A stretch of DNA of 64,000 nt, from contig NZ_JONM01000002.1 of assembly GCF_000711875.1 (NCBI RefSeq), positions 190,769 to 254,768 of the forward strand. The letters run 5' to 3'. The stretch is from Andreprevotia chitinilytica DSM 18519 (GTDB lineage: Bacteria; Pseudomonadota; Gammaproteobacteria; Burkholderiales; Chitinibacteraceae). Below, in pieces: positions 9,043-12,839 of this stretch. Numbering within the stretch: the first letter of the stretch is position 1; each line of letters begins with the position of its first letter. Made by a program: the position numbers and the translations under genes. Below the pieces are notes generated by a model, which was not told the origin of the DNA, made no database searches, and was given only the letters and a program-made list of their open reading frames with translations.

Positions 9043-9146
9043 TGGTGCTTTCCTGTATTTAAGTGTTTGATAACACTTGCGAAACTTGAAACATGCCGAA
9101 TGACATGGATAATGTTTCGAAAACGTCGTGTAAGTTTGGAGCTGGC

Positions 9147-9584
9147 ATGGAGCGTGTGATTGAACTGCAGCATGGGCCGGATCACCGGCTGGTTCGCCAG
9201 TTATGCACGCTCGCGGCCGAGCAAACCACCTTATGCAGCATCATCGGATTCTCGCCGCAAACGCTGGTGGCCCGCGCAGGTTGGGGCGGGGCGCTCAACG
9301 TGCTGATTGTACAGGAGCATTCCAGCTACCTATTGCGCGGCGGGCGACTCTCGATCTTGCGCGAGTTGACCGAAATGCTGATCGAAAACGGCCGCCCGGC
9401 CTTTTTCCTGCCCAGGAAAACCCTGCCGCTGACCGATTGGCCGGCCGAGGACGTTGCACGGTTCCTGATTGCGATTCCGCCGGTTTTGCTGGCCGATAGC
9501 ACGGTGAACCGGCTGCTGCCTGCGGCGCAGCCGATGCATGGCGAAACCATTGAATTGCTGAGCCCGGTGCAGCAGCCGGCTTGA
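9147..9584 (+). CDS. Hypothetical protein, unknown function
   Basis: The 145-residue protein starts MERVIELQHGPDHRLVRQLC. It has no signal peptide or membrane segment and reads as a compact alpha/beta protein with no family I recognise. I use the ATG at 9147, which has GGAG at five-base spacing; the frame is open from 9093. It lies alone on the plus strand between two minus-strand genes whose products (Nudix-ThiE and DUF815 ATPase) are often neighbours elsewhere. Confidence 0.6.
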   Translation: MERVIELQHGPDHRLVRQLCTLAAEQTTLCSIIGFSPQTLVARAGWGGALNVLIVQEHSSYLLRGGRLSILRELTEMLIENGRPAFFLPRKTLPLTDWPAEDVARFLIAIPPVLLADSTVNRLLPAAQPMHGETIELLSPVQQPA

Positions 9585-9632: not shown

Positions 9633-10508
9633 TTAAGCCTTCTGCCCGGCCCAATCACGCGCGAATTGCCACGCCACCCGGCCATTGCGTGCGCCACGGC
9701 CTTGCGCCCATTGCAATGCGGCGCGTTCGCTATCCGCATCCCACGTCGCCACGCCGAAGTTGCTGCACCACTGCCGGCAAGCGGTGAGGTATTCATCTTG
9801 GCTGAAGCCGTAGAACGAGAGCCACAGGCCGAACCGCTCGGACAGGGCGATCTTTTCTTCGGTCGCTTCGCCGGGGTGGATTTCGCCATCCACGTAGCGC
9901 GTCTCGCGGTTTTCCGTGTGGTATTCCGGCAGCAGGTGCCGGCGATTCGAGGTGGCATAGATCAGCACGTTGGCGCTGGGGGCGGCAATCGAGCCATCCA
10001 GCGCGGTTTTCAGTGCCTGATAGCCCCAGTCGCCTTCTTCAAAACTCAGGTCATCGCAGAAGATCAGGAATTTCTCGGGCCGCTCAGCCACTTGGGCAAC
10101 GATATCCGGCAGGTCGACCAGATGGGTCTTTTCCACCTCGATCAAGCGCAAGCCATCGATGCGAAACCCGTTCCAGACCGCCTTCACCAGTGAGGACTTG
10201 CCACAGCCGCGTGCGCCGGTCAGCAGCACATTGTTGGCCAGCCGACCGCTCACGAACTGGCGCGTGTTGGCGAGCAGCTTGTCCTTTTGCAGTTCGACGT
10301 TCTTCAGGTCATCCAGCCGGACTTTGTGCGGGTGGCGCACCGCCTGCAGATGGCCGCGACCGTGCAGGTTGCGCCAGCGGAATGCTTCGGCGTTCCAGTC
10401 GATATCGGGCGGGGCGGCGGGCAGCCAGTCTTCAAGGCGGCCGAGCAAGGTATCGGTGCGTTCGATCAGTTGCAGGAAGTAGGGCGCGAGCGGATGGGGT
10501 TGATCCAT
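9633..10508 (-). CDS. DUF815-family P-loop ATPase
   Basis: The 291-residue protein has an N-terminal helical part, then an AAA-like ATPase core: Walker A at about 98-106 (GARGCGKSS), Walker B in FLIFCDDLSFEEGD, and a sensor-like IYATSNRRHLLPE. DUF815 proteins are uncharacterised ATPases found next to MutT-type genes. The start at 10508 (MDQPHPLAPY) is where family similarity begins; the frame stays open for 88 more codons but that part is not protein-like. No good Shine-Dalgarno is visible. Confidence 0.82.
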   Translation of the reverse strand: MDQPHPLAPYFLQLIERTDTLLGRLEDWLPAAPPDIDWNAEAFRWRNLHGRGHLQAVRHPHKVRLDDLKNVELQKDKLLANTRQFVSGRLANNVLLTGARGCGKSSLVKAVWNGFRIDGLRLIEVEKTHLVDLPDIVAQVAERPEKFLIFCDDLSFEEGDWGYQALKTALDGSIAAPSANVLIYATSNRRHLLPEYHTENRETRYVDGEIHPGEATEEKIALSERFGLWLSFYGFSQDEYLTACRQWCSNFGVATWDADSERAALQWAQGRGARNGRVAWQFARDWAGQKA

Positions 10509-10646
10509 GATGAGGTGGCAGCGGGAACAAGAAGGAGTGAAAGCGTAAACCCAAGCGTCGCTGTTTGTCGTCGCGAAACAGACACAAGACGGATTGAAAG
10601 TGACATAAGTTGCTGTTTTTATTGATTTGTTCTGTTTTTGGCGAGT

Positions 10647-10676
10647 TTGACGCTGGCATGAAGCCGGTGCTAGAGT
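10647..10676 (+). promoter_or_regulatory. Sigma-70-type promoter of the isolated small gene
   Basis: TTGACG at 10647-10652 and TAGAGT at 10671-10676 are separated by 18 bases. A T-rich stretch (about 10610-10640) just upstream could act as an UP element. Transcription would start near 10683 and run through a leader of about 190 bases into the 47-codon ORF. Confidence 0.55.
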
Positions 10677-10873
10677 GGTTAGGCCGTCGTTGCAATCCTG
10701 CCGCGGCGGACGTTCGGTTGTGCAAACAGGCCGGCATGTCCCAAAGGTGTGTCGCGCGGCCGGAGACGACACTCCGGCAACGAGTTATCCCGTCTGGTAG
10801 GTAATAGCGGGATGACACCTGTCAGCAAAATCTGCGACGTAGATAGTGAAACCTTCGAAACAAGGAGATCGCA
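10677..10873 (+). other. Structured 5' leader of the small gene
   Basis: There is no ORF of note here. It holds several local palindromes, including ATCCCG...CGGGAT at about 10786-10813 and GACACCTGTC just after it, then an unpaired purine-rich stretch leading to AAGGAG. The length and structure suggest a regulated leader. I do not recognise a known riboswitch class. Confidence 0.4.
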
Positions 10874-11017
10874 ATGCGATTCGACTTCCTGGAAGGCTTA
10901 GCGAGTACGGTCAACGATGCGTTGATGAACTTGTTCCGGGCCTTTAAACCCTCTACCCAACTCGACCACGACGATTCGAGGAACCTCGCCCTCGAAAACG
11001 CGGAACCATTTCGGTAG
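10874..11017 (+). CDS. Candidate small protein, 47 residues
   Basis: The ORF reads MRFDFLEGLASTVNDALMN and ends ENAEPFR. The first 25 residues could form an amphipathic helix; the rest is polar. A near-perfect AAGGAG lies seven bases before the ATG, a sigma-70-like promoter lies about 200 bases upstream, and a strong intrinsic terminator follows 30 bases after the stop. It is therefore a self-contained unit and not a leader peptide for the next gene. No homologous family is recognised. The alternative is that the functional product is the RNA itself. Confidence 0.55.
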   Translation: MRFDFLEGLASTVNDALMNLFRAFKPSTQLDHDDSRNLALENAEPFR

Positions 11018-11047
11018 CTACCCTGGCCAGGTAAAACGTGATTCCTG

Positions 11048-11085
11048 AAAGGACAAAGGGGCGGAAACGCCCCTTTGTCCTTTTT
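11048..11085 (+). terminator. Strong rho-independent terminator
   Basis: A 16-base-pair stem (AAAGGACAAAGGGGCG with its complement) closes on a GAAA loop and runs into TTTTT. It ends the small transcript and insulates the downstream solute-binding protein gene. Confidence 0.9.
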
Positions 11086-11181
11086 CATTTCAGGCTGGGC
11101 GGTTCGTGGCTGATTAGCGGTGAGCGGCGGCGAACAGCAGGCGACTATGCTTGAGTGATCCAGAGCCGAACGGGTCTGCAC

Positions 11182-11925
11182 ATGACATCCAAGCTGTTTT
11201 GTATCGGGATAGGTGTTTGGGTGGCGCTGCTGGCGACGACCAGCCGGGCCGCCGATGTGCTGACGCTGGTGACCGAAGACTATCCCCCGTTCAATATCAG
11301 CCTCGATAACGGCAAAGGCGTTGGCGGTGTATCGACCGATATCGTCAGAGCGCTGCTGGCCCGCGCCAATGTTCAGGGGGATATCCACGTCTACCCCTGG
11401 GTGCGGGCCTTGCAGATGGCGCGAGACGAAGTGAACACCTGCGTGTATTCCACCAACCGCACGCCCGAGCGGGAGGCGCTCTACAAATGGGTCGGCCCGA
11501 TGATCGATGACGAGCAGGTGCTGTATGCCCGTGCTGACGAGCCTGTCCGGGTAAAGCAACTGGAAGATGCCCGCTCTGCACGGATCGGCAGTTATAACGG
11601 CGCGGCCATGTCCACTTATCTGCGGGGTTTGGGCTTCAAGGTGGAAGATGCGCCGCAGGAACGCCTCAACCCGCACAAGCTGGCAGCCGGCCGGATCGAC
11701 TATTGGGTGACCGGCGTGCTGACCGGCCAATATCTGGCCAGCAAGGAGGGCGTGACCCATATCAAGCCGGTGCTGACGGTGCGGAAGAACGAGATGTTCA
11801 TCGCCTGCAATCTGGGGGTGGCTGACACGTTGATAGGCCGCCTGAATTCGGTGCTCGCCGCGATGAGAAAAGATGGCACGCTGGGCAGGATTCAGCAGAC
11901 GTTTTTTGCCACGAACGGGCATTAG
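11182..11925 (+). CDS. Periplasmic solute-binding protein, family 3
   Basis: The 247-residue protein has a signal peptide ending TTSRA|AD at about residue 23, then LTLVTEDYPPFN and the GVSTDIVRALLARA segment typical of SBP_bac_3 (amino-acid-type) binding proteins. No permease or ATPase genes adjoin it, so it is either an orphan binding protein or a solitary sensor-like protein common in betaproteobacteria. The ligand cannot be predicted. The ATG at 11182 is chosen for the signal peptide; its Shine-Dalgarno is weak. Confidence 0.82.
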   Translation: MTSKLFCIGIGVWVALLATTSRAADVLTLVTEDYPPFNISLDNGKGVGGVSTDIVRALLARANVQGDIHVYPWVRALQMARDEVNTCVYSTNRTPEREALYKWVGPMIDDEQVLYARADEPVRVKQLEDARSARIGSYNGAAMSTYLRGLGFKVEDAPQERLNPHKLAAGRIDYWVTGVLTGQYLASKEGVTHIKPVLTVRKNEMFIACNLGVADTLIGRLNSVLAAMRKDGTLGRIQQTFFATNGH

Positions 11926-11960
11926 TTTGCGAGGCGTGAGCAGGGCAGGGATGTAAACAA

Positions 11961-11982
11961 CAACGGGGCCTGAGCCCCGTTG
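11961..11982 (-). terminator. Intrinsic terminator between convergent genes
   Basis: CAACGGGGC pairs with GCCCCGTTG around a 4-base loop. Read on the minus strand it is followed by TTGTTTAC, so it best serves the AraC-type gene; it may also stop the plus-strand transcript. Confidence 0.7.
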
Positions 11983-11999
11983 CCAGTACCGTTGAACGC

Positions 12000-12839
12000 T
12001 CAGCTTGCGAGTGGAATGCGGATCAACGTGCGCAGCTCGGTGGGCGGCGTGTTGCGCGGGTTATTCAGGTATTCCTCGGTGGCTGGGGCATTACCCGGTA
12101 AGAAGCCGTTTTTCGGCAGCCATTCGCTATAGAGCCAGTTGTAGGCAGCCGCTAGCCCGGCGTACGGCCCGATGAATTCGAGCGTGGCGTAACGCTCGCG
12201 CGCAATTTGCAGCGGCTCCACGCCGTTGTCCGCTTTAACGCCGGCCGGCAATGTCATGGCCGCAGCTGACTTCAGTTCGTTGACCGGCACGCTTTGCGGG
12301 TCGCTGTAATAGATGCCGAACATGCGGTGCCCCTCCAGCGAGACGCCTTGCTTTTGCGTCCAGAGCATCAGCCGCTCAAACGCGTGGCTGATCTCCATGT
12401 ATGACCCGGTGTGCGGCACGCTGGCGAGCGTGAAGGGGCCGATTTCTTCAATCGTGACGTTGTACATGTTGGGTTCCTCTTCGGTTGGGTGGCCAGAGGC
12501 ATGCGCGGTACGAAACGAATTGGGCGGTAGCCCATAAGCCTGCCGGAACGCCCGGCTGAACGCGGCCGGTGATTCGTAGCCCGCGCGGTTGGCAACGAGC
12601 GCCAACGGTTTGGGCGACGCGATCAACTCGCCAGCGGCCCGATGCAAGCGCAACCGCCTCACCGTCTCCGTCACTGTCTCGCCCATCCAGGCACGCCAGA
12701 CGCGATGGAAGTGATACGGCGACAAGCAGGCGATGTCGGCCAGCCGGTACAAGTCCGGGTCAGCGTCCAGATGCTGGTGAAGATGGATGATGACCTTCTC
12801 CAGACGACTGGCGTAGAGCTGTTGCGTGCTTCGTTTCAT
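12000..12839 (-). CDS. AraC-family regulator with GyrI-like effector domain
   Basis: The 279-residue protein has an N-terminal double helix-turn-helix AraC domain (about 8-105: LADIACLSPYHFHRVWRAW and RAGYESPAAFSRAFRQAYG) and a C-terminal GyrI/SOUL-like small-molecule-binding domain (about 125-279: MYNVTIEEIGPFTLASV). This architecture resembles Rob and similar drug-responsive activators. The start has AGGAGG at four-base spacing; the longer frame would read through a palindromic repeat and is rejected. Its target genes are not evident. Confidence 0.88.
   Translation of the reverse strand: MKRSTQQLYASRLEKVIIHLHQHLDADPDLYRLADIACLSPYHFHRVWRAWMGETVTETVRRLRLHRAAGELIASPKPLALVANRAGYESPAAFSRAFRQAYGLPPNSFRTAHASGHPTEEEPNMYNVTIEEIGPFTLASVPHTGSYMEISHAFERLMLWTQKQGVSLEGHRMFGIYYSDPQSVPVNELKSAAAMTLPAGVKADNGVEPLQIARERYATLEFIGPYAGLAAAYNWLYSEWLPKNGFLPGNAPATEEYLNNPRNTPPTELRTLIRIPLAS

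Follow-up and report, generated by a model that had tools for sequence, protein, structure and literature searches.

A putative small-protein gene of the Chitinibacteraceae with a structured leader and a hairpin within its coding sequence

The window, a 64,000-nucleotide stretch of DNA from an Andreprevotia-genus genome of the Chitinibacteraceae, carries at 10605-11085 a complete stand-alone transcription unit, in which a small-protein gene and its leader appear to be new as a family, although their kind, the structured-leader small-protein mRNA or the dual-function RNA, is already known. Selection would seem to guard both the protein and the RNA here, since the leader and part of the coding stretch form conserved RNA shapes. 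The anatomy of the unit, the structure of its leader, purifying selection on its peptide and RNA-level constraint in codons 7-25 were all established computationally. The sequence-only reading had proposed a unit with promoter, structured leader, SD sequence and terminator, and had posed protein or RNA as a fork. All of the parts are present and the answer to the fork is both, with protein constraint in the 3' half of the ORF, covariation in the leader, and the two at once in codons 7-25. The features of the unit are as follows.

10614..10640, + strand: T-rich upstream tract, containing (T)GCTGTTTTT (alignment of 17 loci)
10647..10676, + strand: sigma-70-type promoter TTGACG-18-TAGAGT, with TGC before the -10, kept in homologs
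10684..10709, + strand: leader hairpin P1, from the predicted transcription start (16 different sequences all fold; strand-swap 0/2000; covariation)
10716..10730, + strand: 5' strand of leader stem P2 (GGTTGTG..AACAGG), near-invariant in the leader alignment
10732..10754, + strand: leader hairpin P3 (strand-swap 0/2000)
10755..10782, + strand: leader hairpin P4, with invariant loop (GGAGACGACACTCC) and one C-G to A-U covarying pair
10784..10816, + strand: leader hairpin P5, variable in sequence and length with the stem retained (strand-swap 0/2000; both-side changes in 7 pairs)
10818..10832, + strand: 3' strand of leader stem P2 (CCTGTCAGCAAAATC), near-invariant in the leader alignment
10835..10855, + strand: near-invariant linker CGACGTAGATAGTGAAACCTT ahead of the SD (alignment; single copy per genome)
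10862..10890, + strand: SD (10862-10867) and start codon in a predicted hairpin, ATCGC-aat-GCGAT (folding prediction)
10874..11017, + strand: 47-codon ORF, MRFDFLEGLASTVNDALMNLFRAFKPSTQLDHDDSRNLALENAEPFR, with amphipathic N-terminal helix and conserved C-terminal AEP(F/Y)R (homologs, substitution pattern)
10892..10945, + strand: 22-bp hairpin within codons 7-25, synonymous sites nearly frozen (alignment, substitution and recoding tests)
11048..11083, + strand: intrinsic terminator with 16-bp stem, GAAA loop and T tail (folding; comparison of 19 copies)

The promoter that had been read from the sequence, TTGACG-18-TAGAGT, is the sole sigma-70-like match within 10000-12000, but taken alone it is no better than chance (1 found against 0.6 expected, the average in shuffled sequences). 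It is credible because its hexamers recur: TTGAC and an extended -10, (T/A)G(C/G)TA(G/A)A(T/G)T, are seen again upstream of homologs. The (T)GCTGTTTTT tract is found at the same place, upstream of the -35, in most of the non-Chitinibacter homologs among the 17 aligned loci, and it is possible that it is an UP element or a regulator site. At the other end of the unit the 16-bp-stem terminator was found where expected, and there are intrinsic terminators in 19/19 copies, differing in sequence among them and stopping ahead of the next gene. The fold of the transcript is 5.2 sd below that of shuffles. Transcription from this vegetative-type promoter would produce a monocistronic mRNA of about 400 nt that ends at its own terminator.

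The leader, of approximately 190 nt, begins with the 5' hairpin P1, followed by the P2 stem around P3, P4, and P5 in a three-hairpin junction. RNAalifold identified 14 pairs with changes on both sides across 16 leaders. When the 3' arms were exchanged between species, 0/2000 permutations reached the pairing of the native arms in P1, P3, and P5. The P2 stem and P4 loop are nearly invariant and are therefore beyond the reach of the covariation test. These comparisons support the view that the leader, which had been described as palindromic, is a real structured RNA, with P1, P3, and P5 backed by compensatory change. A conserved covarying structure is thus present in the 5' UTR of homologous ORFs, as in cis-regulatory structured leaders. 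The covariance search that had been suggested as a check revealed that the leader recurs within the family: a model built from these leaders finds them in homologs at E values of 1e-24 to 1e-43 and matches the same 17 genomes that carry the 47-aa form of the protein. Against 300 genomes of the order it gave one weak match of 80 nt, which was taken as chance.

An upstream ORF in the leader (TPVSKICDVDSETF), open in places, was rejected because its frame relative to the ATG varies and there is no common start codon; Amantichitinum lacks it altogether. In Chitinibacter sp. GC72 (G016:C49; locus L010, about 1215-1480) a MITE-like insertion of approximately 260 bp, with terminal inverted repeats of approximately 25 bp (AGGGTCTGTTGG.GCTTGGTTT), parts the leader from the SD, the leader and ORF being otherwise intact.

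The 47-codon ORF is present as claimed and begins MRFDFLEGLASTVNDALMN. In codons 26-47 synonymous differences are high and amino-acid differences low (pS 0.565, pN 0.141), the frame-biased, protein-type pattern that a synonymous/non-synonymous comparison of the 47 residues had been proposed to look for; this substitution pattern would fit a translated ORF. The motif FxEGLxSTVND...EP(F/Y)R persists in relatives that use other codons. In the distant homolog L107 it is encoded in part by GGC CTG GTG AGC ACC, against GGC TTA GCG AGT ACG in the core group, while a 52-aa variant retains the EGLASTVND and EPFR ends around a replaced middle. Conservation in codons 26-47, in the 52-aa form and in the distant homolog is therefore of the protein type, and it argues that the ORF is a real gene whose peptide is under purifying selection. 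AlphaFold2 predicts a helix at residues 2-24 (pLDDT 81-89) and, less certainly, a second helix. Strong amphipathicity of the first helix (permutation p 0.0002) suggests that the protein probably binds the membrane through it. There is no transmembrane or long hydrophobic stretch and the tail is acidic and polar.

Codons 7-25 behave quite differently at synonymous sites, with pS of 0.094 and pN of 0.008. Among six neighbouring genes of the same genomes, 0/2095 windows of 19 codons are as low (minimum 0.298), and in other genes of these genera synonymous differences are seen at 50-75% of sites. When the hairpin was compared with synonymous recodings of six core sequences, between 1 and 34 of 2000 were as stable, and the C/T change at codon 21 sits in a bulge of the hairpin. 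Indeed, RNA structure in the coding sequence persists as the letters change, because in Formivibrio the inner stem stays paired via a C-G to G-C double change and in L107 a differently spelled hairpin (GGCC.GGUGAGC/GCUCACC.GGCC) lies at the same codons. The coding fold is unusually stable in one of the two Formivibrio MAGs (18/2000 recodings) and only mildly unusual in L107 (139/2000). Taken together, these patterns point to simultaneous RNA-level and protein constraint on codons 7-25. The frozen stretch is longer between the two Formivibrio MAGs (L018 and L019, around 1501-1610) than in the core group, near-identity extending to about codon 36 before it falls.

An SD of AAGGAG at seven bases had been proposed; AAGGAG is present at 10862-10867, but the spacing before the ATG is six bases. 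Across 16 homologs the SD is predicted to be partly to fully paired, with a mean unpaired probability of 0.01-0.48 at 37 C and with varying partners, and the start codon is predicted to be inside a small local hairpin in most of them. No clear difference separates the structures predicted at 37 and at 20 C. With the SD mostly paired and the start codon hairpinned in these predictions, translation gating is plausible, albeit with partners that differ among species.

The genome of the window is congeneric with Andreprevotia lacus and Andreprevotia sp. IGB-42. A tblastn-type search, the homology check that had been suggested, found one copy of the ORF in each of 16 other family genomes, at 74-94% identity. 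By profile search of 43 family genomes, the 47-aa form is present once per genome in 17 genomes and 6/11 genera and the 52-aa variant in two Formivibrio MAGs, while four genera have no copy, which makes the gene dispensable. Searches of about 390 genomes from the order and 400 from the phylum gave a single distant copy, L107 (MAIYFLEGLVSTVNDAIAPF...NVEPFR), from another family of the order, which adjoins mutT and DUF815 as in the window. In these searches the element is limited to Chitinibacteraceae and close kin. Misbinning of the L107 contig is unlikely because its DUF815 most resembles, at 65-70%, the DUF815 proteins of its own family. The weak profile matches L108-L112 were judged to be chance, and DUF815 neighbourhoods of 30 other genomes contain no recognisable copy. 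In genus g3, which lacks the gene, the interval from DUF815 to the following gene likewise holds no hidden divergent copy that can be recognised. In another genus without it, g11, the flanking genes nearly abut at the equivalent site (L099, 2426-2428), a pattern that would fit a clean loss of the unit or its original absence.

Because the genes on either side otherwise differ between genomes in both identity and strand, the small gene is an independent one, inherited within a neighbourhood that is loosely shared. Also in this neighbourhood, at 9093-9584 of the window, is a 163-aa ORF without a Pfam match, beside mutT and DUF815 across the family and at 38-41% identity in two further genera.

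No recognised family had been assigned to the unit and none was found. Searched against the 4227 families of Rfam 15, the window region has no match at E<=1, and homolog loci have sub-threshold matches only, that on the leader being just a 16-bit fragment on the opposite strand. Profile searches with the 47-aa protein returned no Pfam, NCBIfam, or PDB chain match, there was no match in plasmids, phages, or viral contigs, and no description of the gene or leader was found in the literature on the family and genus.

Of the parts of the unit, the peptide and the coding hairpin have the widest distribution, and the multibranched leader occurs in the core genera alone. The leader of L107 is only approximately 50 nt, and those of the two Formivibrio MAGs are poorly conserved, unlike the core leader and unlike each other. 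Because the peptide and coding hairpin range more widely, the multibranched leader appears to have been added later, for regulation, to a small-protein gene that already existed. The peptide persists where the conserved leader does not, which suggests that the leader serves the ORF.

The somewhat favoured explanation is that this is a new gene for a small amphipathic protein, the translation of which would be controlled in cis by the structured leader together with the start-site and coding hairpins. The leader would fold into its 5' hairpin plus a multibranched domain in which P2 surrounds P3, P4, and P5, while a local hairpin holds the SD and start codon and a second covers codons 7-25. The leader domain may sense something, whether metabolite, protein, or temperature, and with the hairpins would gate ribosome access, so that the 47-aa protein, with its amphipathic helix and fixed C-terminal EP(F/Y)R, would be made only under some condition. 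Of this explanation, translational gating, sensing, and membrane binding are the inferred steps. Cis-regulation is preferred over a trans-acting RNA mainly because of the apparent later addition of the leader. Against it, the predicted SD partners vary among homologs and do not point to a single switch, the near-invariant unpaired linker at 10835-10855 is unexplained by folding in cis and would also suit a trans-pairing RNA, the leader is replaced in the Formivibrio MAGs and short in L107, and four genera do without the gene.

A dual-function RNA is the main rival, though an unlikely one. The transcript would pair with or sequester RNAs or a protein through the leader, linker, and codon 7-25 hairpin, and would also encode the peptide. 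The frozen linker, which is apparently unpaired, the P4 loop, and the frozen synonymous sites exceed what folding in cis needs, and the transcript has its own promoter and terminator. However, no complement within 3 mismatches to the two most conserved segments was found in the genomes searched, although real sRNA seeds are shorter; the linker and coding-hairpin patterns match only at the small gene, bar two 3-mismatch matches in a genus without the gene. Formivibrio and L107 also keep the peptide and coding hairpin where the leader is replaced or short. A purely non-coding RNA with an incidental ORF would account for codons 7-25 behaving as an RNA element but is very improbable, given the protein-type substitutions in codons 26-47, the in-frame length change that keeps both termini, and the L107 peptide kept in different codons.

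A type I toxin, in which a membrane-active amphipathic peptide is made from a structured mRNA silenced by an antisense RNA, would be in keeping with the small amphipathic peptide, the long leader, and a start codon predicted to be masked by a hairpin. It is nonetheless improbable: a consensus scan has no antisense promoter-like site, no trans complement within 3 mismatches was found in the genomes searched, and the single-copy gene sits in a shared chromosomal neighbourhood, has no plasmid, phage, or viral contig match, and encodes no transmembrane stretch, with an acidic, polar tail. The short ORF does lie upstream of a same-direction gene in the window genome, as a leader peptide or attenuator would. 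A leader peptide had been dismissed on the grounds that termination precedes the next gene and, indeed, this explanation is refuted because no downstream gene is conserved: strong terminators follow the ORF in 19/19 copies and downstream neighbours differ in identity and strand, so there is no downstream target.

A tentative possibility is that the unit represents a new class of structured RNA. Such an RNA would extend without a break from a 5' sensor domain with several branches, past the start codon and into codons 7-25, and selection would act on peptide and RNA in shared bases. It would be either a new dual-function RNA or a new sensor of the riboswitch type that serves a small membrane protein. 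For chitin-degrading beta-proteobacteria, the unit brings both a small-protein family and a structured leader that have not been described before. It also offers a small and testable example of a protein and an RNA structure that evolve within one set of bases, over 19 codons with almost no synonymous change. If the leader senses a ligand, it would represent a new class of regulatory RNA whose dedicated output is a small protein.

Riboswitch and thermosensor leaders that mask an SD, such as the cspA-type 5' UTRs, share with this unit a long multibranched 5' UTR, an SD and start region in a predicted hairpin, and a monocistronic small protein. Unlike these leaders, the unit has no match to any Rfam family and no cold-shock domain, and its predicted fold is not clearly different at 37 and at 20 C. 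Peptide-encoding small RNAs with a dual function include SgrS/SgrT, SR1/SR1P, and RNAIII/hld. Like these, the unit is an autonomous short transcript with promoter, terminator, small ORF, and conserved RNA segments, and its peptide is amphipathic like delta-haemolysin. It differs from them in having no sequence or Rfam relation and no pairing partner found, and in that the RNA structure is upstream of and inside the ORF, with the peptide the more widely kept part. The dual-function small RNA SR1 is covered in PMC8501984. In Pseudomonas aeruginosa, SicX (PA1414) is annotated as a gene yet acts as an sRNA, with a dispensable protein and orthologs confined to one species (PMC10247376). The unit described here resembles SicX in having a small annotated-type ORF, synonymous sites that matter, a lineage-restricted distribution, and its own terminator, but its peptide, unlike that of SicX, shows protein-type selection across genera.
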